NCBI RefSeq assembly: GCF_000018865.1
Contig: NC_010175.1
Span: 806,001 to 870,000, forward strand
From: Chloroflexus aurantiacus J-10-fl
GTDB lineage: Bacteria; Chloroflexota; Chloroflexia; Chloroflexales; Chloroflexaceae
Reading direction: 5' to 3'
DNA: 64,000 bases
The notes under the pieces: generated by a model
Told to the model about the DNA's origin: nothing
Database searches by the model: none
Seen by the model: the letters and a program-made list of their open reading frames with translations, nothing else
Program-made: the position numbers and the translations under genes
Part shown: piece after piece, positions 8,951 to 55,900 of the stretch
How positions within the stretch are numbered: the stretch's first letter is position 1
Layout of the letters: each line of letters begins with the position of its first letter

Positions 8951-11900
8951 CTACCGCTCGCCGGCCGTCCACGCCTCGTACAGCTCGTCCCTGTTCTTTA
9001 GGCCGAGACGTGGTAAGGCATGATTCACCACATAAGTGGCCGCCGTGTGGCGATTTTCCCACATCGCCTGATGTGCTTCGGGTAGTTCATCCCACGGCAC
9101 CACTGCCGGCTCGGTAATCGTCAGCAGACCGGCGCTGATCTCATCATTCAGACGCAGAATTTCATACGCATTTGAGAGGTGCGTACCAAAGATCTGTGCC
9201 GTCGGCATGTAGATGCGGCGCTGGCGCACCCAGATTTGCGGTGCGAAGAAGGAGTAACGCCGCCCACCAATGTCCTCGAAGTAGACAATCCGTCCGGTGA
9301 AGGGCTTGATCAGCATCGCGCTCACCGCCAGTGCATCGTGGGCAGCCCGCTCGATGATCAGATCGGGGTAGCCACGCGGATTGTCGGCACTCCGCAAGAA
9401 GACACCGACCGCGCTTCCTAGCGGCTTGAAGACCAGATCGTTGAAGCGGCGGACAGCCTCTTTCAGACCCTGCGGGTCCTGGCGGGCGTTCGGCAACGGC
9501 GGCATCGTGCGCGGCCACTCAAACTCATCGCCGAAGCGCCGTTTGAGTTCCGCCAGGCTGACGACACCACGTAGGGCAGCCCCGAAGCCCAACGAGAGGA
9601 CAAACTCGCGTTGCGCATCGCTGACGGTAACGACGACGATCCGCGCTCCCATTTGCCGCGCCGCCTCGATAGCCTCCAGACCGCCGGTATCTACCAGGTC
9701 ATCGCTCCCAACCCCGTAGTAGATCAACACCGCCTCACCGGCGCGGAGATTGGCCCGCCGCAGCATCTCGGTCGGCGAAGCTGACCCTGGCTTACCCAGG
9801 AAGGTGAAGTGGTAGCCACTGGTGGCACCGTAGAATGTGAGCGTCGGAATGTGACCATCGCGTGGCTCGCCGAGAAGCTGGAAACTGCGCGGGAAGGCCG
9901 TCTCGCCCGCGTGCGAGACCACATAATCGGCCAGTCGCCCGTCGTTCTGCGCCCGGAACATCGCCAGCAACGGCTGACCGGCGGCTTCCCAGGCTGCCCA
10001 GGCTGATGGATCTTCGGGCACGCGCGTGAAACAATCGGCAACCTCCGGGTCTTTACGGTTAATCGCACCGTGGGCACCCGCAGCCAGCAGCGTAGACGCA
10101 CGTGACGACGAACTGACCATTCCAATTACGCGCAGACCATTCCGGGCCGCCGAGCGCGCTGCGTCCAGACCGGTACCGGTCGCCGCACCCTCGATAAAGA
10201 TGGTGCGTCCGGCCTTGATTTGCAACGTCGTAAAGAGGGCGCGATAGATCGTACCGAGATTGAGGATGTAGCTGCCGGCTGCCTCGATAGACATATCGGT
10301 TGGGATGGGCAGACACTGCGGGGCCTGGGCCAGCATAAATTGCTGATGCGATCCATCTGGCGTGTCGTTCCCCTGGATGACGAAATCGGCGGCCATCGGA
10401 TCAAGGCCCATCAGCGGTGAGAGCAGATCCGACTGCCCGGAGTAGATCGCCACCAGATCACCCACCTTCAGCCGGCCTTCGCGTCGCGCCTCTTCACCCA
10501 GCGCAACGATCAGGCCGATGCCACCTGAACCGGTAACGTGCCAGTCGCGGTCGTGCTCATCAAACCGTGACACCGGAATACCGGTAATCGCCCAGATATC
10601 GTTGAAGTTCACCTCCGAGGCCAGAACATAGATCAGCGCCTGATTGGCGCGGGGGCGTTCCACCGGCACAATAATCTGCTTTTCAGCCACGATGGGATCG
10701 CCGTGAGCCGCCGCACCGGTGTCCGGATCACGAATAACCGTCTGCGCGTACTGCCACTTCGGAATCCGGTCAACACCGGGGAAGAAGGGTGAACCAACCG
10801 GCAACAGTTCTTTCTGATCGCGCAAGAGTTGCTCCTGTTCAGGTGTAATCAATGGTCGGCGGGTTGGCAACGGCGCACTCTGGCGGTCGAGGAACTCGCG
10901 AATACCACGCTTGCCACCGTTCGGGTCAACCACTGCCTCGGCAAAGAGCTTCGCCTCGTGCTCCAGACCGGCCTCGAAGCCGTGGATAATGCCATAGCGG
11001 ATTGCATCCAGTGCCCGATGCACTGCCGCATCGCGCCCAACGGTATGGGCCTGCCGGATAATCCGCTCGATACGTGGATGGGCGATAATCGAGCGCAGTT
11101 CGTCATCGGCAAAGCGCGGGTCTGGTTTGCGCCACTCGTCAAGCTGCTCGTGGCGATGGCGGAAAGCCTGGGTCACCGCAGCCGACTCGATCAACTGACC
11201 ATCGGCGCCGATTGCGGCACGGGCTAACGCGCATGCCAGCGACAGTGAGTCCTGATCGCCGGTAGCAATGGCATCGATCAGACCCAGCTCCAGCGCCTCA
11301 TCAGCCGGTACGCTACGCCCACCCAGAATCATCTCCAGCGCTCGGAGCAGACCGGTGCCGTTGTTGCGCTTGTACAACAGGCGCGGCAAGCGCTGCGTGC
11401 CACCATAACCAGGTAGCAAGCGCAGATTAATCTCTGGCTGACCGAATTCGGCATAGACATCGGCAACCCGGTAATGGCAGGCCATGGCGAATTCCAGACC
11501 ACCACCGAGCGCCACACCGTTGATCGCCGCGATACACGGCTTATTCATACGCTCAATCTTGCGGAAAGCAAGATGGGCGTTATTCGGCAGGGCCATTGCC
11601 TCTTCAACCGTATGAATCTCTTCGAGCAACTGGCGAATATCAGCGCCGGCGACAAAACTCCTGGCGCCCTGTCCGGTGAAGACAATTGCGGCAACATCCT
11701 GACGACGGGCCAGGTGGTCAACAATTGTGTTCAACTCATCGAGCGCACGCTCATTCAGTGCGTTCACCGGCGGATTTGTCACCGTCACTACCGCGAGTTT
11801 ACCCGCACTGGCCGTTGGTGGGTGATACTCGATCCGGAAGTAGCGATAGCGTTCGATGATCTGCTGCTCTTCGGCCATACGCTGACGGCGTTTCCACTCA

Positions 11901-14419
11901 GCGATCTTGGCTGCAATCTCTTCGAGCACTTCAGGATTGCGCAACGTCGTCGTATCACCCAGTGGTTCATCGAGCATCATATTGCGCAAAAAGCGCCGCA
12001 TATACTTCCCGCTGCGGGTTTCGGGAAAGGCACTGACCTCGATGTAATCCTCTGGGACACTGACCGCCCCCTTCTCGGTACGCACCAGCTCATCGAGACG
12101 GCGCCGGTCGGCGCCGGTCAGATGACGGCCAGGCGCAGGTTGAATGAAGGCAACCGGGGTCAGACCCTTCTCACGGTGCGGCGCACCGACCACAATACAA
12201 TTACCGACGGGCGAGTCGGGCGTGATCTGGCGGTCACGCAAAATGGCACCCTCAATCTCCTCGGTGCCCATACGGTGGCCCGACACATTGATCACATCGT
12301 CAGAGCGTCCGTGGAGCGTGAAGCTACCATCGGGGTACTTGATGGCAAAATCACCCTGGATATAGCCCCATTCACCGTTTGGCCCACGTCGCCAGTAGGT
12401 CTTGACGAAACGCTCGGCATCACCCTTCCAGGCCCGCAGCGGAATCTCACCGCGCAGGTACGCCTCGAAACCGGGCACATCACCCCAGAGTGTGCGGGTC
12501 AGGTAGGGATACGGGGCGGTAATCACAATCTCGCCCTTCTCATCGAAATCAGCGACCCGATAGCGCGTCGTCCCGCTCTCATCAGTTTCGGCCACCCAGA
12601 CATCACCCATCACCCAGGGCAAGGGATAGGTATGGGCATCGGGACGAAGCGGGAAGTCCTGATTACCGTAGAAATGCGTCCAGACAATTCCACCGTGCTC
12701 GGTCGCCCAGTACGAATTGATATACTGCGGGGTCATGATCTGCATACCAAACTGCTGCACCGCCGGACTGACCGGCTCGGCGCAGAAGGTTGCAACCCGC
12801 AGCGAGTGCATATCATAGAGTCGCACATCTTCAACATTCTGCGGATTGGACATCACTGTCTTGAGGAAGGTCACACCCGCCTTAAAGATCTGCACCCCAT
12901 AGCGCTCGATGATGCTGGCATAACGCCCGGCTGAGGGGAAGAGCGGTGATCCCTCGGCAATCACCCCGGTCAGCCGACCGGCCATTGTGGCTGTGAGCAT
13001 ATAGCTCTGACCGGTGATCCAGCCCGGATCGGCGATCACATATATCGTATCACCCGGCTCGGCGTCAAAACTGACCCGCAAGGTGTGCACCACACCGGCG
13101 ACATAACCGCCGTGAACGTGGATCACACCCTTGGGCTTACCGGTGCTACCCGATGTGTAAATGATAAACATCGGATATTCAGCATCAACCGGTTCACAGG
13201 GAATACTGGCGTAGAGCGCACGGATAAGCTGGTCATCGGGGAGATTGAGCAGATCATTCTCACTGTGCACATCAAAGCCGGCAGCACGCGCATTGGCCAG
13301 AATCTTCGCCAGCGCAGCATCCAGCAAGTCGTGACTCCAGCGATCTCGCCCCTCGTTCCACAAAATCTCCTGACCGGTATGACGCACAACCACCACAGCT
13401 TCAACCCGCGGCGGCGACTCGACCAGCGCCTGCGCCAGTACTGTACGCACCTTTGCCTGCACGCTTGCATCAAGATCGCGGAGCTTTGCGAGGGCAGAAC
13501 CAACCCCACGCATCACGTCCGAGCGCTCAACCGTAATCTCACCGGCCAGTGCGGCCTCCACTTCGGTGATGATCGTCTGGCGCTGCGACTCAGTCAGGGG
13601 CAAGGTGGCCAGGGTCTGCGCAACAATCGCCTGCGCCGTCTCAACCGGAATATACTTATCGAGCGCCTGATCGGTATACGCTTCTTTGTAGGGCACCACC
13701 TGCGCGTTGCGGTACGCACCATCAGAGGTAATCACCACTCGTGCACCGGCATTGTGAATACGGTCGGAAAGAGTCTTGTCCGAGAAGCCACCGAAGACCG
13801 GCGTGTACAGAATACCCAGTCGTTTTGCCGCTTCCGTATAATAAATCTGCGGCATAATATTCGGCATATTCAGAGCAATCCGATCACCCTTCTTCAGGCC
13901 CAGATCACGCAACACCTGCGCAGCCTTCACCACCTCCACCAACAGGCGCCGCCGCGTGATTGTCTCCTGGACAACCGGACCACCACGACCATTGTTGAGC
14001 GAGTTATCCCAGCGGTCACCTTCAAAGTAGTAGGCCACCTCGTCGCCATAGCCCATCATGACATGCCGGTCTACTTCATTAAAGCAGGCATTTGTCAACC
14101 CACCACTAAACCAGCGGTAAAACGGCGCTTCACTATCATCAAACGCCTGTTGCCAGGGCTGATAATCGGCGGGATAGTCTACCGTTACAGGGGCACCGGT
14201 AGCGGCATCCAGCCCTTCCCAACGCTGACTAGACTCGTTGAAGCGAATCCAGCAATGGTGTTGTGGGTCGTACCAGTGGATAACTGTCCGGGCAATCGCG
14301 CCATGAAAGGCACCGGGATCTGCCAGCGCAGCAGCGCGCTGAGCTTCCCAATCAACTCGATCCCGAATCGGATTAGAGCGGGGCGCCCGTGGTGGGGCAA
14401 GGGGCGCAGTGTCGATCAT
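8951..14419 (-). CDS. pcs: Propionyl-CoA synthase, trifunctional (3-hydroxypropionate bicycle)
   Basis: 1,822 residues, the published size of the Chloroflexus enzyme, which converts 3-hydroxypropionate to propionyl-CoA with ATP, CoA and NADPH. Domain 1 (about 1-860) is an AMP-forming acyl-CoA synthetase: YTSGSTGKPKGVIH near 415-430, the hinge GRSDDVINVSGHRMGTEEIE, and the catalytic-lysine motif RSGKYMRRFL near 805. Domain 2 (about 870-1150) is an enoyl-CoA hydratase: GVALGGGLEFAMACHYRVAD near 965-985, then PEINLRLLPGYGGTQRLPR. Domain 3 (about 1200-1822) is an MDR-type enoyl-CoA reductase with NFNDIWAITG and the nucleotide-binding stretch IFIEGAATGTGLDAARSAA near 1410. The start at 14419 is set by AAGGAGG 7 nt upstream and by the published length; a TTG 21 nt upstream is in frame but less likely. 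Confidence 0.97.
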   Translation of the reverse strand: MIDTAPLAPPRAPRSNPIRDRVDWEAQRAAALADPGAFHGAIARTVIHWYDPQHHCWIRFNESSQRWEGLDAATGAPVTVDYPADYQPWQQAFDDSEAPFYRWFSGGLTNACFNEVDRHVMMGYGDEVAYYFEGDRWDNSLNNGRGGPVVQETITRRRLLVEVVKAAQVLRDLGLKKGDRIALNMPNIMPQIYYTEAAKRLGILYTPVFGGFSDKTLSDRIHNAGARVVITSDGAYRNAQVVPYKEAYTDQALDKYIPVETAQAIVAQTLATLPLTESQRQTIITEVEAALAGEITVERSDVMRGVGSALAKLRDLDASVQAKVRTVLAQALVESPPRVEAVVVVRHTGQEILWNEGRDRWSHDLLDAALAKILANARAAGFDVHSENDLLNLPDDQLIRALYASIPCEPVDAEYPMFIIYTSGSTGKPKGVIHVHGGYVAGVVHTLRVSFDAEPGDTIYVIADPGWITGQSYMLTATMAGRLTGVIAEGSPLFPSAGRYASIIERYGVQIFKAGVTFLKTVMSNPQNVEDVRLYDMHSLRVATFCAEPVSPAVQQFGMQIMTPQYINSYWATEHGGIVWTHFYGNQDFPLRPDAHTYPLPWVMGDVWVAETDESGTTRYRVADFDEKGEIVITAPYPYLTRTLWGDVPGFEAYLRGEIPLRAWKGDAERFVKTYWRRGPNGEWGYIQGDFAIKYPDGSFTLHGRSDDVINVSGHRMGTEEIEGAILRDRQITPDSPVGNCIVVGAPHREKGLTPVAFIQPAPGRHLTGADRRRLDELVRTEKGAVSVPEDYIEVSAFPETRSGKYMRRFLRNMMLDEPLGDTTTLRNPEVLEEIAAKIAEWKRRQRMAEEQQIIERYRYFRIEYHPPTASAGKLAVVTVTNPPVNALNERALDELNTIVDHLARRQDVAAIVFTGQGARSFVAGADIRQLLEEIHTVEEAMALPNNAHLAFRKIERMNKPCIAAINGVALGGGLEFAMACHYRVADVYAEFGQPEINLRLLPGYGGTQRLPRLLYKRNNGTGLLRALEMILGGRSVPADEALELGLIDAIATGDQDSLSLACALARAAIGADGQLIESAAVTQAFRHRHEQLDEWRKPDPRFADDELRSIIAHPRIERIIRQAHTVGRDAAVHRALDAIRYGIIHGFEAGLEHEAKLFAEAVVDPNGGKRGIREFLDRQSAPLPTRRPLITPEQEQLLRDQKELLPVGSPFFPGVDRIPKWQYAQTVIRDPDTGAAAHGDPIVAEKQIIVPVERPRANQALIYVLASEVNFNDIWAITGIPVSRFDEHDRDWHVTGSGGIGLIVALGEEARREGRLKVGDLVAIYSGQSDLLSPLMGLDPMAADFVIQGNDTPDGSHQQFMLAQAPQCLPIPTDMSIEAAGSYILNLGTIYRALFTTLQIKAGRTIFIEGAATGTGLDAARSAARNGLRVIGMVSSSSRASTLLAAGAHGAINRKDPEVADCFTRVPEDPSAWAAWEAAGQPLLAMFRAQNDGRLADYVVSHAGETAFPRSFQLLGEPRDGHIPTLTFYGATSGYHFTFLGKPGSASPTEMLRRANLRAGEAVLIYYGVGSDDLVDTGGLEAIEAARQMGARIVVVTVSDAQREFVLSLGFGAALRGVVSLAELKRRFGDEFEWPRTMPPLPNARQDPQGLKEAVRRFNDLVFKPLGSAVGVFLRSADNPRGYPDLIIERAAHDALAVSAMLIKPFTGRIVYFEDIGGRRYSFFAPQIWVRQRRIYMPTAQIFGTHLSNAYEILRLNDEISAGLLTITEPAVVPWDELPEAHQAMWENRHTAATYVVNHALPRLGLKNRDELYEAWTAGER

Positions 14420-44421: not shown

Positions 44422-45498
44422 ATGGCGCGCCAGTTACGGCTTGCCTTGCTCGTGGTGTGGATTGTGTTGTTCAGCGGATGTAGCGCTGTCACCACACCAA
44501 CCCCCACTACCGCTCCCGTCACCAGCAACCTCAGCGGCATCAAAGATTATCTGCTCGGCCAGACACGTGCGCTGGTCACGGCTACCGCTGACCTGCAAAC
44601 AGCCAGTAACCGTTACTACGACCTTGCGCAGGCGACCAATTTTGACTATGCCAGCCTCTGGCAAAACCAGCAGCGTGAGGTGATTGCAGCCCTTAACGCA
44701 GCTCGTGAAGCGTGGATTACTGCCAGCCCAATCTACGAGAAGATGGAAGGTATCGTCGCCGGTACACCGGCACTCGCTCAATTCGACGTTGATCTCGATG
44801 CCGGTGCCGCCGGCAGTGAAGACCCTGAAAACGCGGTCTCTTTCGACCTCGTCTTGCCCGATGGACGCACCCTGCCCAAGCCAGGAAACCTGTTTGGTGT
44901 GACTGAAAGCACGCTATGGGGTACTGATCCGGCTTTTGCCGCGCCGGTTAGCGCGGATTGGAACGGCGATGGCACGATTGAATTCGGCGAAACCCTGCCC
45001 GATGCCAATGTGTTGAAAGCCAGTGCCGATCTGCTGGCCCAAATGGCGAACGATCTGGATAGCACCGCACAGAACTGGACACCAACCGAATCGGATGCCT
45101 TTACCGCGCTGGTGGTGATGGTTCCTACTATGAGCGAATACTTTGCTTCGTGGCGCGATTCGCGCTTTGTCCTGGGTGACGCTTCAACGCAGCGTGATTT
45201 TAATGTCATTTCGCGTCTGGCCGATATTCAAGATATTCTAAGCGGGCTTGAGGTTGTCTATGCGCAAGTGCGCCCACGGGTAGAGGCGGTCGATCCTGCC
45301 CAGGCAGAGCAGATCGCAACCGGTCTGCGTGATCTGCGCGCCTTTGTGGCCGATATTTACACGCAAGAGCGCAATGGGCGACGCTTTAGCCCGGAAGAGG
45401 CGGACACGCTAGGCGCTGAGGCGCAAAATCGGGCCACTGCCATTACCGGTCAGATCAGCCAGATGGCCGGCGCCCTTGGGGTCACCCTGGCGGAATAA
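44422..45498 (+). CDS. Imelysin/EfeO-like lipoprotein, first gene of the iron operon
   Basis: 358 residues. Signal peptide with lipobox FSGC (Cys20) and a short Thr/Pro linker, then an all-helical domain. The stretch GIKDYLLGQTRALVTATADL near 40-60 and the spacing of helices are like imelysin/EfeO proteins, periplasmic partners of FTR1 permeases. The metal motif HxxE of peptidase M75 is not evident, so the assignment leans on position: 99 bp upstream of an FTR1 permease. A segment ADWNGDGTIEFGETLPDA near 174-192 resembles a calcium-binding (dockerin/EF-hand-like) loop. GGAGG lies just before the ATG. Confidence 0.65.
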   Translation: MARQLRLALLVVWIVLFSGCSAVTTPTPTTAPVTSNLSGIKDYLLGQTRALVTATADLQTASNRYYDLAQATNFDYASLWQNQQREVIAALNAAREAWITASPIYEKMEGIVAGTPALAQFDVDLDAGAAGSEDPENAVSFDLVLPDGRTLPKPGNLFGVTESTLWGTDPAFAAPVSADWNGDGTIEFGETLPDANVLKASADLLAQMANDLDSTAQNWTPTESDAFTALVVMVPTMSEYFASWRDSRFVLGDASTQRDFNVISRLADIQDILSGLEVVYAQVRPRVEAVDPAQAEQIATGLRDLRAFVADIYTQERNGRRFSPEEADTLGAEAQNRATAITGQISQMAGALGVTLAE

Positions 45499-45529
45499 GC
45501 CCTGCACGCGCTTATCTGAGAAAGCCTGG

Positions 45530-45552
45530 TGGCGCAGGTCATGCCTGCGCCA
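45530..45552. repeat. Perfect intercistronic hairpin (REP-like)
   Basis: TGGCGCAGG / CCTGCGCCA with loop TCATG, between the lipoprotein and FTR1 genes. It may modulate mRNA stability or partial termination; no T-run. Confidence 0.6.
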
Positions 45553-45597
45553 AATATTCCGATAGACGTTCAGCCAGAGAATCAGGAAGGTTCCTGT

Positions 45598-47946
45598 ATG
45601 AAGCTCAAGCCGGTATGTGCCACTACCCGCTACGGACTGATATTGCTGGCTCTGATGGGAATAGCTCTCGCCCTGATTGCACCGACAGTATCAGCGCAAA
45701 CCCGATCACCCGGTCAGATCGCCGAGCATATTCGAGCGACCCTGGTATCCATTCAACTCCACGAAGCCGGCGATCCCACAACTGCCCAGGCACACTTGAA
45801 CGAACTGTACGGCGAATACACCGCCCTGGCACCAACCATCGGTCACTACAATACCAGCGCAGACAGCGCTATCCGTGCCGGATTTCGTGCTGCCGGAAAT
45901 GCGCTGGCTACTGCCGATATGCCCGGTTTTGCAATGGCACGCGCCCAAATCTGGACGGCACTTCTGAACGGTGGGTACGGCGTGGTGAGCGGTGCTTTGC
46001 ACGAAGGTGATACACTCACCGCCCGACAATGGCTGGTAGTGCGTGAATTTCGCCATGCCAATCGGTTTGCTCGCCCGAATGCCGATGCCACGAAAGCGGT
46101 ATACGCCGCCGCGAACGGCGCGCTTTCAACCGAGGAGGCGCTGGCCGCAGTGAACGCCGATCTGCTCGACACGTATCAGGCCCGGCTCAATGAAGCACTT
46201 CAGGCACTCATCGCCGCCGATCAGCAAGGCTTTCCCAGCCGGCGTGCTGAAACAGCAGCGCTGGCCGCCGGCTACTTCGCCATTCTGACTCCTGCTTATG
46301 CTGAACAGCGTGGCGAAGCGGCAGCGATGAGAGCACAGGCAGCCTTTGCCGCATTGCAAGAGGCAGCGTACCGCGGTGAACCGATTGCATCACTGCTGGC
46401 AGAGGTGCAAGACCTTCTGCGTGGCTTTCGTGCTGCACCACTCAGCCCTGCCGAACAGGTGCGACGGAGCGGTCAAATGCTGCGCTTTTTGCAACTCGTG
46501 CCGATTGAGTACGAGCGAGGGGTGCGAAACGGTCAGGTTACCGTCGATTTAGAGATTCGCGAAGCGATCACCTTTCACGCCGGTGCGATGGCTGCCTTTA
46601 GCGACCTGCGTGATCTGCTCGAACAGCGCAATCCCGATCTGACCACCACGGTTGCCGCTCGTTTCACAGAGCTGGGTAACGCATTGGCCAACACCGGCAA
46701 CCGCACGGAGATTGCCGAACCAGCGACAATTCGCTCAACGACAGAAGCGCTGCTCAGCGATTTACGCACTCTCTTGCCACCCGAATGGCAAAAGCAAACC
46801 AGCGGTGCTGACTTCGATGTGATTCGGTCAGCTCTTGATCAGATGGAACAGGCAGTACGTGCCGGCGAGTATGCACTTGCCGAATCGGCGCGTCTGGAAG
46901 CCTACGCGATTATGGAGATTGGCCCGGAAGCCAAGCTGATCGCCTTCGCTCCTCAGTACAAACCGATTATCGAGGGCTATTTCTGGTACGGACAGAATGA
47001 CCACAAAGGTCTGGCCTATCTCATCGAGCAACGGGCAAGTCCGGCTGAGATTGCCGCCACCCGTGCCGCGCTCGACCAGGCATTAGCCGAAGCCGAACAG
47101 GCACTGGCCGGGAGCAATGCCCCACTGGCGATCACAACCAACGCAGCAGTGATTGTCTTCCGCGAAGGGCTTGAGGCAGTACTTATTCTGGCGTCGCTGA
47201 TGGGTAGTCTCAAAGCGCCAGGACAACGCCGTTTCCGCCGCCCCCTCTGGATCGGTGCCGGCGTAGCGATGCTGGCAACCGTATTGACGTGGATTCTGGC
47301 GCAGAGTGCATTAATGGCGATGGCCCGGCTGGGTGAGACGCTGGAGGCTATCGTTTCCTTGATTGCAATTGCCGTCTTGCTCTTGATCACCAACTGGTTC
47401 TTTCACGATGTCTACTGGAAAGACTGGATGGCATCCTTCCACCAGCAGAAAAAGCATATTCTCGGTGGACAAACCGGTCAATGGCTCGGCCTGATCACGT
47501 TGGGGTTCGCCAGTATCTACCGTGAAGGATTTGAGACGGTGCTCTTTTTGCAGGCACTGACCCTCGAAGGCTCCATTACAACTGTTCTGGCTGGTGTCGG
47601 TATCGGCCTGACACTCACCCTGTTCGTGGGACTGGCCGTCTTTGTTATGCAGGCAAAGCTGCCCCACAAGAAGATGCTGATTGTTACCGGGATTCTGATT
47701 GGGGCAGTGCTGTTGCAAATGGTTGGTCACACGGTCAATGTCTTGCAGGTGATCGGCTGGCTACCGCTGCATCCGATTCGCTGGCTCGACCTGCCCTACT
47801 GGACGGGATTCTGGTTTGGGTTGTATCCTACCTGGGAAGGGATTGGTCTGCAAGCAGCAGCAGCGGTCTTTGTGATTGGCAGTTATTATCTGGCCGAGTA
47901 CTTGCAGCGACGTGAGCAACAGCGCTACGTAATCGCCCATTCGTGA
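45598..47946 (+). CDS. FTR1-family high-affinity iron permease with long N-terminal exterior domain
   Basis: 782 residues. A signal peptide (about 1-34) and a long helical exterior part (35-510) come before a seven-helix FTR1 membrane domain. The iron motifs are VIVFREGLEAVLIL near 518 (REGLE) and SIYREGFETVLFLQ near 642 (REGFE). The family moves Fe3+ (after oxidation of Fe2+, or as EfeU). The N-terminal extension probably replaces a separate EfeO-like partner or works with the upstream lipoprotein. The start is ATG 45598 with AGGAAGG; an in-frame ATG 69 nt earlier is inside a hairpin and less likely. Gap to the next gene is 27 nt. Confidence 0.92.
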   Translation: MKLKPVCATTRYGLILLALMGIALALIAPTVSAQTRSPGQIAEHIRATLVSIQLHEAGDPTTAQAHLNELYGEYTALAPTIGHYNTSADSAIRAGFRAAGNALATADMPGFAMARAQIWTALLNGGYGVVSGALHEGDTLTARQWLVVREFRHANRFARPNADATKAVYAAANGALSTEEALAAVNADLLDTYQARLNEALQALIAADQQGFPSRRAETAALAAGYFAILTPAYAEQRGEAAAMRAQAAFAALQEAAYRGEPIASLLAEVQDLLRGFRAAPLSPAEQVRRSGQMLRFLQLVPIEYERGVRNGQVTVDLEIREAITFHAGAMAAFSDLRDLLEQRNPDLTTTVAARFTELGNALANTGNRTEIAEPATIRSTTEALLSDLRTLLPPEWQKQTSGADFDVIRSALDQMEQAVRAGEYALAESARLEAYAIMEIGPEAKLIAFAPQYKPIIEGYFWYGQNDHKGLAYLIEQRASPAEIAATRAALDQALAEAEQALAGSNAPLAITTNAAVIVFREGLEAVLILASLMGSLKAPGQRRFRRPLWIGAGVAMLATVLTWILAQSALMAMARLGETLEAIVSLIAIAVLLLITNWFFHDVYWKDWMASFHQQKKHILGGQTGQWLGLITLGFASIYREGFETVLFLQALTLEGSITTVLAGVGIGLTLTLFVGLAVFVMQAKLPHKKMLIVTGILIGAVLLQMVGHTVNVLQVIGWLPLHPIRWLDLPYWTGFWFGLYPTWEGIGLQAAAAVFVIGSYYLAEYLQRREQQRYVIAHS

Positions 47947-47973
47947 CGATCAGACAGAAAAGCAGAGGAGACT

Positions 47974-48882
47974 ATGACCATGATGCCCGATCCGATTGCG
48001 CCGATTGCTGCGGCAGCAATCGAACACATGAATAGCGATCACGCCGATGCTGTACTGGCCTACGCTCGTGGCCTGGCCGGTATAGCCTGGGCCAAACAAG
48101 CGCTGATAACGCGCCTCGAAGCAGGTGGTATTGAGATACAGGTCAGTGGCGACGAACGAACAACGAGCGTCCTGATCCCATTTGAGCCACCACTCACCCA
48201 CCCGGAACAGCTTCGACCGGCACTCATTGCTCTGGCCCAGAAAGCACGTCACCATCTGGAAGCCGGCGCTCAGGTAGAGGCTCCAGTGCCGATACGCAAT
48301 GCTGAACTTCCCCATCTGTTGCTCAATGCCATTGCCAATCGCCGCAGTTTTGCGCTGCAAGATTTAACCGCCGAGCCGATTGCACGAGAGGCGGTGACGC
48401 TGATGCTCGAAGCGGCGAACTGGGCACCGAGCCACGGCCAGACAGAACCCTGGCGCTTCGTGGTCTATAGCGGTGCTGCACGCCAAATCCTCAGTGAAGC
48501 CTTTGGTACAGCATTTCGTCTGCTCAACCCCAACCTGCCCGCCGGGAGTCCCGGTGAAGAGGGGCAACGCAACCGGGTGTGGCAGGCGTCAGTCTGGATT
48601 GCAATCGGCATGCAAGCCCATCCGAAGCGACCCGAATGGGAAGAGTTGATTGCCGTCGGCTGTGCAGTCCAGAATATGCACCTGATGGCCAGTGCGCTGG
48701 GTCTGGCCGGCAAATGGACGAGTGGTGCCTGTGCGACACACCCGCACGTGGCAGAGGTTGTCGGATTTACCCCTGGCACCCGATTACTCGGCTTCTTCTA
48801 CGTTGGGCATCCTGCGGCTCATGAGTGGCCACGCGGTCGCCGTCGTTCACTGGTAAACAAAGTCGTCTGGCACGAGGAATAG
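47974..48882 (+). CDS. DUF2470 (HugZ-like) - nitroreductase fusion
   Basis: 302 residues. Residues about 12-90 match DUF2470, the small domain of HugZ-type heme-utilisation proteins (EHMNSDHADAVLAYARGL). Residues about 108-302 form an FMN-dependent nitroreductase: NRRSFALQDLTAEPIAREAV, then LMLEAANWAPSHGQTEPWRF near 141-160 (FMN-binding), and a C-terminal LGFFYVGHP. A fusion of these two is unusual. The gene is the third of the iron operon with GAGGAG before the ATG, so a role in iron release from heme, or flavin-driven ferric reduction, is plausible but unproven. Confidence 0.85.
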   Translation: MTMMPDPIAPIAAAAIEHMNSDHADAVLAYARGLAGIAWAKQALITRLEAGGIEIQVSGDERTTSVLIPFEPPLTHPEQLRPALIALAQKARHHLEAGAQVEAPVPIRNAELPHLLLNAIANRRSFALQDLTAEPIAREAVTLMLEAANWAPSHGQTEPWRFVVYSGAARQILSEAFGTAFRLLNPNLPAGSPGEEGQRNRVWQASVWIAIGMQAHPKRPEWEELIAVGCAVQNMHLMASALGLAGKWTSGACATHPHVAEVVGFTPGTRLLGFFYVGHPAAHEWPRGRRRSLVNKVVWHEE

Positions 48883-49000: not shown

Positions 49001-51343
49001 TTACCGATTCAGTAACGGCACGTAGACCTGCGGGAAGGTCACCTGATCGAGTGTAATGACACCTGCGGGCAAGACTGACGCAGCGGGCTGAGCAGTCGTC
49101 GTCGGGCTACCGCTGACACTCGGATTGCCGGCACCATCAAGGATGCGAGCATAGACATAGTAAGGTCCAGGGGTAAGCTGTTCTTCCGGCAAGCCACTAG
49201 CCAGACTCCAGACCACGTTAAAGCTATTGGTGTCACCCGGGGCAGCAACCGGGAACCAGACCAGGCTCGGATCAGTTGCCGGATTAGCTACCGGAACCCG
49301 GCTATTGGCCAGCCAGACGCCCCAGAAGCCGCGACCAGGGTAGAGATTATCGGTTACAGCAATATTACTAAACTCCAGATTCACGATAATTGTTGCACTG
49401 CCCGGGATCGGCTGCACCTGCAAGGTACCACCATTGAGTACCGGCGGTGTGACATCGTAGATCAATGTGCGCGTAAGATGCATCGAATTGCCCAGTGTAT
49501 CACGCATACGCACGACAACCGGGAGCGGTCCTTCAGCTACCGTATCAGGATAGGGCAGGATATTGGCAAAGCGATTGCCGCTAATGGTCAGTGTACTCAC
49601 GCTATTGAGTGCCGTTGCGTTTGGAGCCAGCGCAAAATTTTGCAGTCCACTACAATCACCAACACTCCGCAGTTCGACGTAGATTGCCGGCACACGAGTG
49701 TAGTCAGGATGACCATCACTGGCCCCACCTTCTCCAATCGTATCAGCGGTTGTAATGCCGGTAAACGGTGAGGTCTTCAAGCGCGAGAAGGGGTTTCCGA
49801 CAGTAGCGCTGGCTAGAACACCGGCATCGATAATCACCGCATCAGAGCGAACCTGATCGATCAGATTATTCTCACTCCGACGCAACTGCGTGTAGAGAAC
49901 ACGTTCAACACAACCGGCATCGGTACGCAAGGATTCGGGAATTGGCACCGTCAACACACTGGTTGGACCACTAGGGTTGAACGGCTGCCATCCACCAGAG
50001 TCATTTTCAGTATCAGTCGGAGGTGCTCCCCAGCGCCAGCGCACCTGATCGGGGAGATTCGAGGTGGTCAGGTCAGGGAAGGTCACATTAACCGTCACTT
50101 TACTATCGCCACCAACCACTGCAACATCATTTTCGATGAGCGGGCGTGAGCCGAACGCAGCACCTGGAGCCTGGAAGAGGGCATAGCGAGGACGCGGAGC
50201 CGTACCCTGGAAGAATTCGTGCACGACATGCATATAGCTTCGCGCACCAACCCGGGCATCAGCCCACGCATTAAAGACCGGCGCGACGGTCGGCGCACTG
50301 ACCACCGGCAAGAAGCCCTGATTCGCCGGCCTGACGGCATAAAAGAGTTGATTGACACTTCGGCTGGTGCCCTGACGAATCCATGCCATGTGGAGATTCC
50401 CACGCTGGTCGTAGTCAATGTTGACTCGGCCATCACCTTTTCCGCTGATCAGTGTAGAAGCCGACCAGGGGCCACTGAAATTACTGACCAGCTTTTCCGC
50501 GAAGAAGATGCCATCATCAGCTCCCCGGAATGCAACCGCGATTCGCGTATTTGGTGCCGGATCGGCACTGAAAGCAACACTGGCATCAGCAAACACCGCC
50601 GACGTGCTACCGTTCACATCAACAGGCGTTCCAAAACCTGTACCAGTCCAGAGCGAAACCATGACGTGTAATGGACGTGGCGTATCGCGAGTGAAGGTAA
50701 TTGCCAGCTCACCATTGGGTCCAGCCGCCATTGCCGTTTGAGACTTATACGCCAGTGCACCTGGTACTGAACCTACGGCAGACCAGGTAGTGCCACGATC
50801 ATTCGAGAAGGCATAGTTAATATTTTTATCATCACGCCACGCTGCGACAATCTGGCCGTTGGTGCGGACTGCCATTGCAGGTTCCACGGCAAAGATATGA
50901 CCACGCATTATTTCAAATGTTGCCGGATTCCAGGCTCCACCCGGCTCACGGCGACGAAACTTGATCGTCTTGGCAACCTGATCGATCCACAACACGTAGA
51001 CCTCGCCAGTTGGTGCAGTTGCCACCGCGGTTTGCACCCAGTCCTGGGCAATCCCGGCAGCAACAGTACCAAGCGATAATGGTGCGGGAAAAGCGGCATC
51101 TTCTTCACCCTTGACCCACAGTTTTACAGTGCCGTCTTCACTGCCAGAAATGCCATCGGTTGCACTAACATACACTCCATTGGCATCAACAGCCAGTTGG
51201 GGGTATTTGGTATTACTGGCTGCAATATCAATTTCGCGGATGAAGCTGGCCCCTTCTTGTGCCTGCGATGGAATAGGGAGCAACCCGGCCAACGTAACAA
51301 CAATGAAGCAGATAACAGTAATCAGCGAAGTTGTACGCAACAT
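49001..51343 (-). CDS. Secreted beta-propeller-like protein, sialidase-like (paralogue 1)
   Basis: 780 residues. Signal peptide MLRTTSLITVICFIVVTLAG to about residue 28. The first half shows recurring strands with SxDxGxxW-type repeats (SNDRGTTWSAVG near 175) and FTRDTPRPLHVMVS, as in six-bladed sialidase-like propellers, but the Arg triad of true sialidases is not evident. The second half is Ig/FN3-like (GAPPTDTENDSGGW; TPPVLNGGTLQVQ). It ends VYVPLLNR, a tail also found in the paralogue at 52764-55103 (TYVPLVTR). Start ATG 51343 with AGGAGA upstream. It lies 79 bp downstream of the LamG-like gene, as in the second module. Confidence 0.75.
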   Translation of the reverse strand: MLRTTSLITVICFIVVTLAGLLPIPSQAQEGASFIREIDIAASNTKYPQLAVDANGVYVSATDGISGSEDGTVKLWVKGEEDAAFPAPLSLGTVAAGIAQDWVQTAVATAPTGEVYVLWIDQVAKTIKFRRREPGGAWNPATFEIMRGHIFAVEPAMAVRTNGQIVAAWRDDKNINYAFSNDRGTTWSAVGSVPGALAYKSQTAMAAGPNGELAITFTRDTPRPLHVMVSLWTGTGFGTPVDVNGSTSAVFADASVAFSADPAPNTRIAVAFRGADDGIFFAEKLVSNFSGPWSASTLISGKGDGRVNIDYDQRGNLHMAWIRQGTSRSVNQLFYAVRPANQGFLPVVSAPTVAPVFNAWADARVGARSYMHVVHEFFQGTAPRPRYALFQAPGAAFGSRPLIENDVAVVGGDSKVTVNVTFPDLTTSNLPDQVRWRWGAPPTDTENDSGGWQPFNPSGPTSVLTVPIPESLRTDAGCVERVLYTQLRRSENNLIDQVRSDAVIIDAGVLASATVGNPFSRLKTSPFTGITTADTIGEGGASDGHPDYTRVPAIYVELRSVGDCSGLQNFALAPNATALNSVSTLTISGNRFANILPYPDTVAEGPLPVVVRMRDTLGNSMHLTRTLIYDVTPPVLNGGTLQVQPIPGSATIIVNLEFSNIAVTDNLYPGRGFWGVWLANSRVPVANPATDPSLVWFPVAAPGDTNSFNVVWSLASGLPEEQLTPGPYYVYARILDGAGNPSVSGSPTTTAQPAASVLPAGVITLDQVTFPQVYVPLLNR

Positions 51344-51422
51344 GGGAACGTTCTCCTGATGGGTTCGGTGATTTTGCTCTATTGAGTAATGGTCACGCCT
51401 CACCTTATCCACATCCAATCGG

Positions 51423-52196
51423 CTAAGGCGCAATGATAACATCATCGAACAGCATCCCGCCGATGGCACGGGTATAGACACCAGCCTGCCCGGCAGGCAA
51501 TGGCTGTCCATCGGTTACCTCCATCAGAAGCTTGCCGTCGAGACGAACCTGTAACATTCCGCCACGCAGCTCCAGCTCGATCACGTGCCACTGGCGAGGC
51601 GCAAAGCCCGGCCCCTCTACTGTTGCCAGCGGTGTAGCTACCCCATCGACCACCTTCTCCAGGACGTATTTTGGTGTCGCTTCGTATTCCCTCTTCAACA
51701 GGCGTACCCGGTAGTAGCTTGCCTCGTAACCGACCTCACCCTGATAGCGTGCGACGATGCCGGCCACGCCATTAAACTCATCGTAAAAACTGACCCGCAC
51801 CACGCCATCGCCCACCACAGGCGCGGCTGCTAACAGGGCAACCTGGGCCAATGAGCTATTGCGCAGTTCGCCGGCAAAATCCTGACGCAGGCGTCCGTTG
51901 TCAATGACCCAATTAGGGGTGTCTTCGGTCAAGACGAAATCGAGAGCAACGGATTGCCAGGCGGCGAGGCTATCAGTGGTAGCAAAATCAGCGACGAACA
52001 GCGGACCGGTGGCTAAACCTGCCGGCACCGTTGGATTCGGGCCAATAGTCGGGGCCGGTGGTTCAGGGGGATATTGCAAGATTGGTCCACCCTCCTCGGC
52101 TTGACCGGGACGGAGTGCCAGCCAAAAACCACCGAAAACTGCCACCATCACCAACAGCAGTGATGTGAGTAACAGGTGAGGTTGGCGATACCACAT
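51423..52196 (-). CDS. Exported LamG/concanavalin-like protein (module 1)
   Basis: 257 residues. N-terminal membrane helix near 7-27, an extracellular Pro-rich stretch (GGPILQYPPEPPAPTIGPNP), then a beta-sandwich domain (about 65-257). It begins FVADFATTDSLAAWQS and ends AIGGMLFDDVIIAP, resembling the LamG/DUF1080 type of carbohydrate-binding lectin fold. Nearly the same protein occurs at 55130-55900; the two differ at few positions over about 220 residues. Start ATG 52196 with AAGGAGGAG. The gene precedes the sialidase-like gene by 79 bp. Sugar ligand unknown. Confidence 0.75.
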   Translation of the reverse strand: MWYRQPHLLLTSLLLVMVAVFGGFWLALRPGQAEEGGPILQYPPEPPAPTIGPNPTVPAGLATGPLFVADFATTDSLAAWQSVALDFVLTEDTPNWVIDNGRLRQDFAGELRNSSLAQVALLAAAPVVGDGVVRVSFYDEFNGVAGIVARYQGEVGYEASYYRVRLLKREYEATPKYVLEKVVDGVATPLATVEGPGFAPRQWHVIELELRGGMLQVRLDGKLLMEVTDGQPLPAGQAGVYTRAIGGMLFDDVIIAP

Positions 52197-52323
52197 CGTA
52201 GACTCCTCCTTACACATGAAGACTACCTGCATTGTACAACGTAGCCGGCAATGTTGATAGGGATAGGATATAACGAAAAAGTACTGAAAATGGTAAAATT
52301 TTTGCGCCAACTGTATTCAGGCA

Positions 52324-52343
52324 ACGATACGATAAAGTATCGT
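52324..52343. promoter_or_regulatory. Small inverted repeat upstream of module 1
   Basis: ACGATAC, 6 nt, GTATCGT. Operator-like, about 130 bp upstream of the LamG-like gene start. Function unknown. Confidence 0.3.
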
Positions 52344-52530
52344 AGTACAAGACACCCGTTTTCCCTCCTGCTCATGTATAAAACCGTTCTGAGCGGCCAA
52401 AAGTAACGCGGGATTTTGGTGGATTTGTCTTGTTTATTCTCAAATCGATGACAGCAGCGAAAAAGACAGGAGTATTCCTCTGTTGGGCAAGCACGTCACA
52501 GTGAATGTATCCAGGGGCTATGGTTTTTAA

Positions 52531-52659
52531 TGGCACCACAGCGACACCGAGGACACAGAGAATAGTAGCAACTGGGTGGCCATCAGGACTTCACAGTGGG
52601 TATGTATGGTATCTTCGCGGTTTGCATGGCACAACAGCGACACCGAAAACACAGAGGGT
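52531..52659. repeat. Two direct CACAG-type short repeats
   Basis: ACCACAGCGACACCGAGGAC (with ACAGAG following) and AACAGCGACACCGAAAACAC, spaced about 90 bp. Related to the inside of repeat family 2 (CACAGAGGCACGGAGGACAC at 19791). Confidence 0.6.
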
Positions 52660-52670
52660 CGTAATATAGC

Positions 52671-52693
52671 GGGGCGGCTCTGGTAGCCGCCCC
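52671..52693. repeat. REP-like hairpin
   Basis: GGGGCGGCT / AGCCGCCCC with a 5-nt loop; perfect 9-bp stem, kin to the GGGGCGGGTT palindrome inside the transposase gene. Confidence 0.65.
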
Positions 52694-52763
52694 GAACGGT
52701 GATGGTGGTACAAGCGCGTGATACCACCACCATCTCCTATTTTCTATCTCCTACGTACAAACA

Positions 52764-55103
52764 CTAGCGCGTTACTAAGGGTACATAGGTTCGGACAGGC
52801 GTGAGCGTGCTGGTTGCCGTCGTCTCTACCACCGCATCACCAATATTACCGGCACGGTCAATCAGGCGAATGTAGAGATAGAAGGTCTGTTCAGTAACAC
52901 TGGTCATTGCCATTGTTACTCCGGGGGCATTCGCCATACTCCAGCTCGACACTGTGAACTGACCACCGTTGAAGTCAACCGGAGCTTCAATCCATTGCAG
53001 GGTCGATGCAGTAGCTGGATTAGACACTGCGCTTGGGCTGACGGCAATCAAGACACCCTGAATACCGTTCGCCTCGGTAATCGTTGCAGTTGAGAGATCG
53101 AACGTTAGGTCTTGGAGAATGTCTCCCAGCGGCGAGTCAGTAGCGGTAATGATCTCACTTCCGCTCAACGACATTTGCGGCGGCGTCCGATCAAGTCGAA
53201 TGGTACGGGTCACCGTTTGCGAATTACCTACCTGGTCATAAATTCTTATCACAACCGGGTAATTACCATCCGGTGACGGTGGCGAGAAGGTGACACCAGG
53301 GAGCGGAATAATCGCGTTTAACGTACCCTCTACGTCAAGATCGCTGGTTGCAGCAAGGGCAGCCACATTACTGGCAACGCGCACCCGACTGATTTGTGAA
53401 CAATCACCGCCATCTGTTACTGAAAGCAATATCTGTGACACTGGTGTACTGCCGGGATCGAGATCGTAAACTCGATAGTTACCGGCATACCAGCTCGACG
53501 AGTCGTACAACAACGGATTAGCTACACCGGCGGTGGCAACGACGCTGGTATCAATGATCACACTCGCCTTGCGTTCGGTTGTATCAATGACTGAAGCGGT
53601 GCCATTCCGTCGCAACTGAGTGTACAACGTGCGCGGTGTACAATCGTTGACATTGAGAAACGCAGCGGGGATCGGCACCGTCAATTCGGTGCTGGCAGTT
53701 GCGTTTTCGCTCAGCAATACCCAACCACCCGAGTCATTCTCGGTATCAGTTGGTGGCGCTTCCCACCGCCAGCGTACACTGATATTTTGCGGGTTTGTAC
53801 CCAAACCGGGGAACGTTACCTTCACCGACGTGCGGCCGTCTCCTCCAACCCGTGCTGCCCCACCTTCGATGAGCGGATCTGAGCCGAATGGCGAGCCGGG
53901 GGCCTGGAAAAGAGCGTAGCGGAGAAATGGGGTATCACCATTGAAGAACTCGTGGGCTACGTGCATGTAGAAGCCATTACTTGCACTGCTGACACCCCAG
54001 GCGTTAAACAGCGGTCCAGAGCTTGCCGACTCAATCGGTCCCAGAAAGGTGCCATTGGCTAGGCGTACTGCATAGTTTAACCGATTCTGGCTGCGACTAC
54101 CCGGCGTCCTGATGAAGGAGATATGTAAATTGCCGTAGAGATCGGTACTTACCGAGACCTGCCCATCGCCTTTCTCGCCTGTCAAACGTGCAGTGGACCA
54201 GGGTTGATTGTCGAACAGATTATTGATATTTTTCTCGGCGTAGAAGATGCCGCTATCGGCGTGACGGTAACCGACGTAGATGGTACCATTGTGAATAGCG
54301 ACACTGCTATCGGCATAGGGGGCAGGATCACCAAGATTGACATCAACCGGCACACTGAAACCATTCCCCTGCCAGATTGACACCATCACGTGCAGCGGTC
54401 GTGGTGTATCACGGGTGAACGTCAGGGCAACCTCGCCATTCGTACCTGAAGCAAGCTGCACCACAGCCCGATACGCTTCCACACCAAAAGCACGGGTTAC
54501 TGGCGCCCATGAAGCTCCACCGGTATCTGAGAAGGTGTAATAGATTGAGGCATCACTGCCGGTAAAATCATCACGCCAAACCGCAATGATGCGACCACTC
54601 TGACTCCCACCGTTCACGACAGTCATGGCTGGACGTACCGGAAAAGCGACGTTTCGCGTCACTTCGGTGACGGGTCCCCAGTTACCGGCAACATCACGTT
54701 TCCGAAACCGAATAACCTTGGCCGCCTGATCGATCCAGAGGGTTAACACATCACCAACCGGTGAGGTGGCAATGGCGCTGTTGATATACTCGGCATTAAG
54801 TGTCGTGCGTGACGTGTTTCCTAACGTATACGGGGTAGGGAAGGCCAGTGCAGTCTCGGTTTTTGACCAGACACGGGCTTTCCCTTCGGAGGCACCACTC
54901 GACTCAGCAATCCCTATGACATGAACCTGATCACCGTAGGTTGCAACCTGTGGCAGCTTGAGATTTGAGCTGTTGGGAAGAACGGTTTCGACTAATAATC
55001 GTGCACCACTTTGGGCGGCTGATGGCGTTGCCGATGGCAAGATGCCGGCAAGAAGTGCCAGCAGACAGAGCGGCACGAGCAAGGTGCGAACGAGCATCGA
55101 CAT
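52764..55103 (-). CDS. Secreted beta-propeller-like protein, sialidase-like (paralogue 2)
   Basis: 779 residues, collinear with the protein of 49001-51343 (780 residues). Shared strings include FTRDTPRPLHVMVS, HEFF then GDTPFLRYALFQAPGSPFGS, APPTDTENDSGGW, TLYTQLRR and VGGD. Signal peptide about residues 1-28 (ending PSAAQ). It ends VRTYVPLVTR. The propeller half probably binds or cleaves glycans, but no catalytic set is apparent; the C-terminal half is Ig-like. Start ATG 55103 with GAGGAG; an internal ATG two codons later is possible. It follows the LamG-like gene after 26 bp. Confidence 0.75.
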   Translation of the reverse strand: MSMLVRTLLVPLCLLALLAGILPSATPSAAQSGARLLVETVLPNSSNLKLPQVATYGDQVHVIGIAESSGASEGKARVWSKTETALAFPTPYTLGNTSRTTLNAEYINSAIATSPVGDVLTLWIDQAAKVIRFRKRDVAGNWGPVTEVTRNVAFPVRPAMTVVNGGSQSGRIIAVWRDDFTGSDASIYYTFSDTGGASWAPVTRAFGVEAYRAVVQLASGTNGEVALTFTRDTPRPLHVMVSIWQGNGFSVPVDVNLGDPAPYADSSVAIHNGTIYVGYRHADSGIFYAEKNINNLFDNQPWSTARLTGEKGDGQVSVSTDLYGNLHISFIRTPGSRSQNRLNYAVRLANGTFLGPIESASSGPLFNAWGVSSASNGFYMHVAHEFFNGDTPFLRYALFQAPGSPFGSDPLIEGGAARVGGDGRTSVKVTFPGLGTNPQNISVRWRWEAPPTDTENDSGGWVLLSENATASTELTVPIPAAFLNVNDCTPRTLYTQLRRNGTASVIDTTERKASVIIDTSVVATAGVANPLLYDSSSWYAGNYRVYDLDPGSTPVSQILLSVTDGGDCSQISRVRVASNVAALAATSDLDVEGTLNAIIPLPGVTFSPPSPDGNYPVVIRIYDQVGNSQTVTRTIRLDRTPPQMSLSGSEIITATDSPLGDILQDLTFDLSTATITEANGIQGVLIAVSPSAVSNPATASTLQWIEAPVDFNGGQFTVSSWSMANAPGVTMAMTSVTEQTFYLYIRLIDRAGNIGDAVVETTATSTLTPVRTYVPLVTR

Positions 55104-55129: not shown

Positions 55130-55900
55130 TTACGGGGCGATGATAAAGTCATCAAACAGCATGCCACCGATGGCACGGGTATACACACCAGCCTGTCCGG
55201 CTGGCAACGGCTGTCCATCGGTTGCCTCCATCAGAAGCTTACCGTCGAGACGAACCTGTAACGTTCCGCCGCGCAGCTCCAGCTCGATCACGTGCCACTG
55301 GCTCGGTGCGAAGCCCGGCCCCTCCACCGCTGCCAGCGGTGTGGCTACCCCATCGACCACCTTCTCCAGGACGTATTTCGGTGTCGCTTCGTACTCCCTC
55401 TTCAGCAGGCGTACCCGGTAATAGTTTGCCTCGTAGCCAACCTCGCCCTGGTAGCGTGCCACGATGCCGGCCACACCGTTAAACTCGTCGTAAAAGCTGA
55501 CCCGCACCACACCGTCGCCCACCACAGGCTCAGCCAGCAAGGCGACCTGAGCCAGCGAGCTGTTGCGCAGCTCACCGGCAAAGTCCTGGCGTAGACGGCC
55601 ATTGTCAATAACCCAGTTGGGGCTATCTTCGGGCAAAACAAAATCGAGGGCGACGGATTGCCAGGCGGCGAGACTATCAGCGGTCGCAAAATCGGCGACG
55701 AACTGCGGACCGGCGGCCAGACCAGCCGGCACCGTGGGATTCGGGCCGATGGTCGGGGCCGGTGGCTCAGGGGGATATTGCAAAATCGGCCCACCCTCCT
55801 CGGCCTGACCGGGACGAAAGGCGACGAACAGGGCAGCACTCACCGCGATCAGCGACGCGGCCACTGCCAGCAGCGAGAGTAGACGGTTTCGTTGTGCCAT
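55130..55900 (-). CDS. Exported LamG/concanavalin-like protein (module 2)
   Basis: 256 residues, close copy of the 51423-52196 protein; the N-terminal membrane helix (about 8-28) differs but the rest from RPGQAEEGGPILQYPPE on is nearly identical. LamG-like sandwich from FVADFATADSLAAWQS to LFDDFIIAP. Start ATG 55900, GAGGAGG upstream. Placed 39 bp after the glycosyltransferase gene and 26 bp before the sialidase-like gene, so the five minus-strand genes from 58137 down to 52764 could be one transcript. Confidence 0.75.
   Translation of the reverse strand: MAQRNRLLSLLAVAASLIAVSAALFVAFRPGQAEEGGPILQYPPEPPAPTIGPNPTVPAGLAAGPQFVADFATADSLAAWQSVALDFVLPEDSPNWVIDNGRLRQDFAGELRNSSLAQVALLAEPVVGDGVVRVSFYDEFNGVAGIVARYQGEVGYEANYYRVRLLKREYEATPKYVLEKVVDGVATPLAAVEGPGFAPSQWHVIELELRGGTLQVRLDGKLLMEATDGQPLPAGQAGVYTRAIGGMLFDDFIIAP

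Follow-up and report, generated by a model that had tools for sequence, protein, structure and literature searches.

The window, a stretch of 64,000 nucleotides of the Chloroflexus aurantiacus J-10-fl chromosome (NC_010175.1, positions 806,001 to 870,000), encodes two large exported proteins on its minus strand, here denoted A and B. Protein A (49001–51343, minus strand) has 780 amino acids counted from the methionine of its signal peptide, the open reading frame being listed from 51511. The predicted signal peptide, MLRTTSLITVICFIVVTLAGLLPIPSQAQ (51257–51343, minus strand), was assigned by our own heuristic and by reading the sequence; it is followed by a weak BNR-like match and then by a C-terminal portion, a linker and finally the tail considered here. 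Protein B (52764–55103, minus strand; 779 amino acids, with a signal peptide at the start) is a paralogue of A. As read from the translations, the frame 49001–51511 ends with QVTFPQVYVPLLNR and the frame 52764–55103 with TLTPVRTYVPLVTR, each followed by the stop codon. The common element of these ends (QVYVPLLNR and RTYVPLVTR) is Y-V-P-L-x-x-R-stop, exactly as claimed in the earlier note. The tail Y-V-P-L-L-N-R of A occupies positions 49004–49024 (stop codon 49001–49003) and the tail Y-V-P-L-V-T-R of B positions 52767–52787 (stop codon 52764–52766), both on the minus strand; both rest on the reading of the frames, the pattern count in the genome and the alignment of homologues.

Each of the two genes has a tail-less neighbour on the same strand ending with ...IIAP. 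The neighbour of A (51423–52310) encodes a 3-keto-disaccharide-hydrolase/LamG-like protein whose start reads as a signal peptide, and its paralogue next to B (55130–55900) is also predicted to be exported; the pair provides an internal control for the tail. Elsewhere in the window, at 44422–48882 on the plus strand, an Imelysin (M75) gene, an FTR1 iron permease and a DUF2470-nitroreductase fusion stand in a row and resemble an iron-uptake cluster.

Proteins A and B are paralogues over their full length (44% identity), and the only part that does not align is the stretch directly before the tail. The earlier statement that the preceding sequences differ thus holds for this stretch, not for the proteins as a whole. 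Since the proteins are paralogues at this level of identity, the tail might have been inherited by common descent, and the pair taken alone is weak proof. A sequence search of the PDB with protein A gave no match, and the fold predictions for both paralogues (mean pLDDT 41) are too poor for interpretation.

The genome containing the window (G000, a single contig of 5,258,541 bases) was scanned with a DNA pattern for [YF]-h-P-h-h-x-R-stop, which also lets through Ser in place of Arg and TGG in place of the stop codon, and with the reversed pattern as a control. There are 18 matches in 5.26 Mb, compared to 2 for the control. All 18 terminate long open reading frames, 17 of which are open to the edge of the DNA examined (507 codons) while one has 309 codons. 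No likeness upstream of the tail was seen among the 18 carriers save for the window pair. Signal peptides were called by our heuristic, not by SignalP, in 16 carriers, and were recognised by eye upstream in the remaining two; in one of these, L054, the signal peptide lies upstream in frame. The folds of tail carriers are diverse and include subtilases, C25, C11 and M23 peptidases, PA14, kelch, LamG, DUF11, Ig-like and beta-helix domains, and also GDSL. A crude hydrophobicity scan of the last 60 residues yielded a hydrophobic segment in only one of the 18 carriers, L061.

The second carrier with a signal peptide recognised by eye, L062, has an unusual structure: the signal peptide and the first part of its tail gene (9300–13024, plus strand) are in another frame, an apparent frameshift or sequencing error. 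Immediately to the right of the window, L052 (G000:C1:870001-890000) contains four core-tail genes within 20 kb, one of them with two extra residues; two MGDG-synthase-like genes lie near by.

The relation between the tail and export was assessed in 546 genes sampled from chosen DNA stretches, a set purposely enriched for tail genes. The motif [YF][LIVM]P[LIVM][LIVM]x[RK] stands exactly at the C-terminus 18 times, one or two residues before the end twice, and internally twice. The core pattern falls on 22 genes of the sampled set, and a signal peptide is predicted for 20 of these, the heuristic giving none for L054 and L062. The core tail is present in 0 of the 231 other cytoplasmic-called, 73 TM-only and 15 lipoprotein-type genes of this tail-enriched set. 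No tail carrier has a lipobox, compared to 15 other genes, the numbers being too small to build an argument on. Twenty-four spread-out stretches of the same genome outside the window contain zero tail genes, and hence are silent about the contrast between exported and cytoplasmic proteins. Variant tails that carry trailing residues or lack Arg are seen as well (YVPLVVRGR, FMPIIQRS, YMPVIASGG, WVPLVMN). Overall, the tail occurs almost exclusively on proteins that have a Sec-type signal peptide, is found on unrelated folds, and lies at the C-terminus or within a few residues of it.

We also considered the composition of the linker before the tail. The mean fraction of Pro, Thr, Ser and Gly is 0.37 compared to the background of 0.33, only a slight excess, and a fraction of at least 0.6 is reached in 4 of 72 cases (background 1.7%), so this argument was dropped.

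Across 31 genomes of the order, a search for homologues of protein A yielded 25 places, including the window's own two genes; 20 others were aligned with these two. Omitted were the tail-less L203, L204, where the motif is followed by eight residues (IYLPIIFNQRSFCS), and L205, where a neighbouring frame had been read instead. The 22 aligned homologues have 23–82% identity to protein A. Proline at position −5 is present in 21 of them, the remaining row being offset by one residue, and Arg or Lys at −1 in all 22, while the aromatic residue (Y/F) at −7 is dispensable. Position −6 is occupied by L (14 rows), V (3), M (2) or I (1). The linker positions from −26 to −7 drift, with an entropy of 2.2–3.3 bits.

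That the tail is a mere consequence of the common descent of the window paralogues, as their 44% identity over the full length would suggest, is next to impossible: the carriers are unrelated and the tail is selectively conserved. Common descent alone is refuted by the 18-against-2 count, the long-frame ends and the conservation among homologues. A structural role is improbable as well. The tail could be a strand completing the last domain, or a cap protecting the C-terminus from proteases, and its beta-type sequence and the Ig-like domains at the ends of several carriers are consistent with that. However, the same tail ends subtilase, C25, C11 and GDSL proteins, also follows Thr/Pro-rich linkers, and is fixed where the linker is variable.

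The motif has a counterpart among existing models. Two NCBIfam entries, NF050076 (sort_motif_YLP) and NF053834 (ultrashort_CTERM), are described as the YLP-box putative sorting motif. When 35 tails were compared with them, 17 matched NF050076 and 14 matched NF053834 (E-values up to 10), and four loci (L050, L098, L140 and L124) reached the cut-offs of both models. The two YVP tails of the window matched neither, and among ten tails of G000 scanned singly L050 was the sole match. The models resemble the window tails in the C-terminal placement, length and consensus, but some of our tails end in Lys and the YVP tails of the window go unmatched. The motif is already catalogued in NCBIfam, with the window's YVP tails outside both models. 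By our own criterion, not that of NCBI, the alignment places YVP and YLP tails on a single continuum, since residue −6 shifts between L, V, M and I in the homologues, while Pro(−5) and Arg/Lys(−1) stay. Among the papers listed in a literature search, there was no description of the tail, nor was a paper or an enzyme found for the YLP-box motif.

Several known sorting systems invite comparison. Like the LPXTG signal of sortase substrates, the tail is a C-terminal tag of exported proteins with a proline motif ahead of hydrophobic and basic residues, and a DUF11 domain is common to a tail carrier and an adjoining LPQTA protein. Unlike it, the tail lacks a membrane helix and the LPXTG-helix-basic cluster arrangement, and in most cases it has just one basic residue. 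At this locus, L056, a DUF11 protein with a classical LPQTA-TM-RRR sortase signal (L056:5645-6886, minus strand) has a C25 gene on one side and a tail gene with DUF11 on the other, so that two types of C-terminal tags stand side by side on related DUF11 proteins.

PEP-CTERM and GlyGly-CTERM proteins are described as numerous exported proteins of one genome that are usually homologous at the C-terminal region only (PMC1569441, PMC3237569), and the same sources present partial phylogenetic profiling of proteomes as a method for finding the partner enzyme. The tail resembles the signals of the exosortase and rhombosortase systems in having many exported carriers per genome. These signals are, however, tripartite and include a membrane helix, whereas the tail is helix-free, and this disfavours, in particular, the GlyGly-CTERM/rhombosortase system. 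The likeness to type IX secretion lies in the possible partner, a PorU-like C25 peptidase that often bears the tail itself. The type IX C-terminal domain (CTD), which PorU itself also carries, is a folded unit of domain size, whereas the tail has seven residues; the Por secretion tail family is absent from the family matches of the 17 carriers scanned.

Counts of the Arg tail, with the reversed control, were obtained for 301 Chloroflexota genomes. Three genomes from the family of the window have 45, 49 and 45 matches (control 4, 6 and 7, respectively), and some other groups also show a strong excess, while in groups such as f18, f25, f27 and f49 the count is no higher than the control. Genus g6 has no excess of Arg tails. 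Its Lys tails number 7, 8, 10 and 6 in four genomes, with 7, 4, 2 and 3 for the control, that is, they equal the control in one of the four; each of these genomes has one Lys-tailed C25.

A scan of a collection of 84,980 species with the strict pattern returned 101 stretches. Among the 80 stretches listed, there are 59 loci labelled Chloroflexota, in which 58 of 61 matches terminate a reading frame that either has at least 100 codons or is truncated by the locus end. In the other listed loci this is true of 6 out of 21 matches (Fisher p = 3e-9). Signal peptides are predicted in 29 of the 34 complete Chloroflexota carriers, none being seen in the other five. The earlier note's statement that other exported Chloroflexota proteins bear similar tails is borne out by these counts and by the collection scan. 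Whole-genome counts in ten of the scanned genomes show an excess in G313, G315, G320 and G321 and none in six, including the Anaerolinea MAG G322 (3 matches, control 4). Apparent tails in G281, G066, G170 and G057 were discarded, as their readable hits are short frames or lack a stop codon. At G321:C32:21966-22119, three tail-coding matches are spaced by exactly 65 bases, resembling a tandem repeat.

The distribution bears on a reading in which the tail is a signal for export through an outer layer, a step that follows Sec, with no anchoring. One of the genomes with many tails is G158, presumably a Roseiflexus, with 23 matches against 1 in the control. Chloroflexus aggregans and Viridilinea are described as diderm-like, with an enigmatic outer layer but without BamA or key LPS genes (PMC7332563), and this speaks for a signal of that kind. 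The same paper reports that the layer is apparently lacking in Roseiflexus castenholzii (PMC7332563), which does not fit the tail count of G158. The tag is therefore unlikely to serve the outer layer alone, and we regard a pure export signal as distinctly unlikely.

A restriction of the tail to this phylum is not supported, as MAGs labelled Acidobacteria and Deltaproteobacteria use it too. The former, G313, has 36 matches against 7, of which 25 are strict, with the stop codon. In 13 hand-picked stretches of this MAG, 14 of 14 matches end frames of 137 or more codons, 10 of them with a predicted signal peptide; a further hit, L284, is the end of an 81-codon frame. The latter, G315, has 11 matches against 4, nine of them strict, and 4 of the 7 examined end frames of 100 or more codons. 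RpoB of both MAGs falls apart from the Chloroflexota rows, beside Geobacteraceae and a gamma-proteobacterium, in a tree with two very long branches. In tetranucleotides, the similarity between the tail contigs and the RpoB contigs of the same MAG is 0.73–0.86, and that of L125 to a Chloroflexota locus is 0.84. Some tail contigs of G313 and G315 may therefore be misbinned.

Taken together, the confinement to exported proteins, the unrelated folds, the C-terminal position and the selective conservation suggest, with a probability of about 0.7, that the heptapeptide h-P-h-h-x-[R/K]-COOH, usually with Y/F in front, works autonomously as a sorting tag at the C-terminus, one that probably addresses proteins to the cell surface. 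The proposal of a C-terminal anchoring or secretion signal is partly supported: the tail behaves like a sorting tag, which may serve either anchoring or secretion, whereas the description of the signal as a new one is not supported, given the YLP-box models. Under this reading, the protein would first be exported by Sec, with the tail emerging last; a dedicated envelope factor would then bind the tail outside the cytoplasmic membrane and retain or attach the large multidomain cargo at the surface. As the tail contains no membrane helix, the reader must recognise the short peptide itself. If so, large exported proteins in a phylum with a debated envelope would be sorted by a tag without a membrane helix, to our knowledge among the shortest bacterial sorting tags. 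Surface display in Chloroflexota becomes testable, since genomes that use the tag can be told from those that do not and the candidate enzyme family is open to knockout.

No cognate processing enzyme had been seen at the locus, and indeed there is none among the 12 window proteins scanned. The all-against-all comparison around the tail genes of G000 detected no enzyme recurring beside them, and no recurrent neighbour enzyme was found in the 59 Chloroflexota loci together with the tail stretches of G000, the commonest neighbour families, as read from the sequences, being an ABC ATPase and a regulator. Sortase (PF04203) is present in 40 of 48 genomes, with or without the tail. It was rejected as a necessary partner, since G168 has zero PF04203 candidates and yet bears tails (23 against 9 for Arg and 15 against 3 for Lys, one confirmed by reading). 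Exosortase (PF09721), found in 2 of 26 genomes (G011 and G184) and not in G000, was likewise rejected as a necessary partner.

The as yet unproven leading candidate for the reader is the PorU-like C25 peptidases of clan CD, relatives of the type IX sortase. The C25 domain (PF01364) was found in 22 of 48 genomes in one scan and in 29 of 80 in another; a PorU-like C25 is present in G000 and in most tail-bearing genomes. Among 103 Chloroflexota genomes with tail counts (10 C25-tested genomes lacking counts were excluded), a strong C25 is seen in 24 of 31 tail-bearing genomes and 10 of 72 others under a mechanical rule applied to the Arg counts. Hand re-scoring of seven genomes (addition of four from g6, removal of G057, G066 and G170) changes this to 28 of 32 and 6 of 71, the addition of g6 being partly circular since its tails were first noticed on C25s. 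These genome-level figures are inflated by relatedness. At the level of families, using a hand-made list, six have both, two only the tail, two only C25, and 24 neither (p = 5e-4). Hence the search for a co-occurring transpeptidase-like family, suggested earlier, did produce one, albeit with imperfect co-occurrence: C25 was not found in G142, G037 and G262 from Chloroflexota, nor in G315, and was rejected as the sole reader. The tails of G142 and G037 are confirmed by reading, and that of G262 by the count only (7 against 1); G209, tail-bearing by the count only, has just a weak C25 match.

The C25 proteins themselves are informative. The structure closest to their profile is PorU (6za2, 97 bits, compared to 48 bits for gingipains), and all 15 rows of the C25 alignment match the PorU model NF033707, the one row displayed scoring 165 bits, below the cut-off of 420. 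His730 and Cys771 are invariant in these rows and, by our own reading, would be the catalytic residues. The alignment contains 15 of 21 rows; of the six omitted, one ends with FAPLIVR, and the other five show the motif lengthened by extra residues or lacking the final R/K. The tail proline and the terminal Arg/Lys are each present in 14 of the 15 rows, the exception having one extra residue. Out of 28 readable C-termini from 30 C25 loci, 15 have the exact motif, 8 a variant and 5 none; of the latter, two match C25 weakly and another has masked bases directly upstream. C25s without the tail include L226 and L241 of G011. Since the tail is present on most C25s, these peptidases could themselves be nothing more than cargo.

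Three accounts of how the tag could be read differ in probability. The most probable, though at less than even odds, is non-covalent docking, with the free tail binding a pocket or a beta-edge of an abundant receptor in the wall or the outer layer, no enzyme being involved. It agrees with a short, mostly C-terminal, basic-ended and helix-free tail, and with genomes where C25 (G142, G037, G262, G315) or sortase (G168) was not found and exosortase is scarce; on the other hand, the same tail occurs under the different envelopes of Chloroflexota and of the MAGs labelled Acidobacteria and Deltaproteobacteria. Covalent sorting, in which a PorU-like C25 transpeptidase would cleave before the tail and join the cargo to an envelope acceptor, in the manner of PorU in the type IX system, is rather unlikely. 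The co-occurrence, the likeness to PorU, the invariant His and Cys and the tails on most C25s are in its favour, and are weighed against the four tail-bearing genomes where C25 was not found, three of them Chloroflexota, the tail-less C25s and their possible role as cargo, and a co-occurrence partly among close relatives. Still less likely is a pared-down system, with no membrane helix in the tag and no type IX translocon, in which a PorU-like C25 transpeptidase would read the seven-residue tag and fix Sec-exported proteins to the envelope in Chloroflexota and in some bacteria of other phyla.

In G034, G043, G102, G110, G070, G152 and G283, a C25 domain and a sortase domain are separated by less than 1 kb. 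The six C-termini of such sortase-adjacent C25s that were read have the motif with extra residues or without the final R/K, for instance, YLPLTIAAP, YLPMLRLDH and YLPVMKRVAP.
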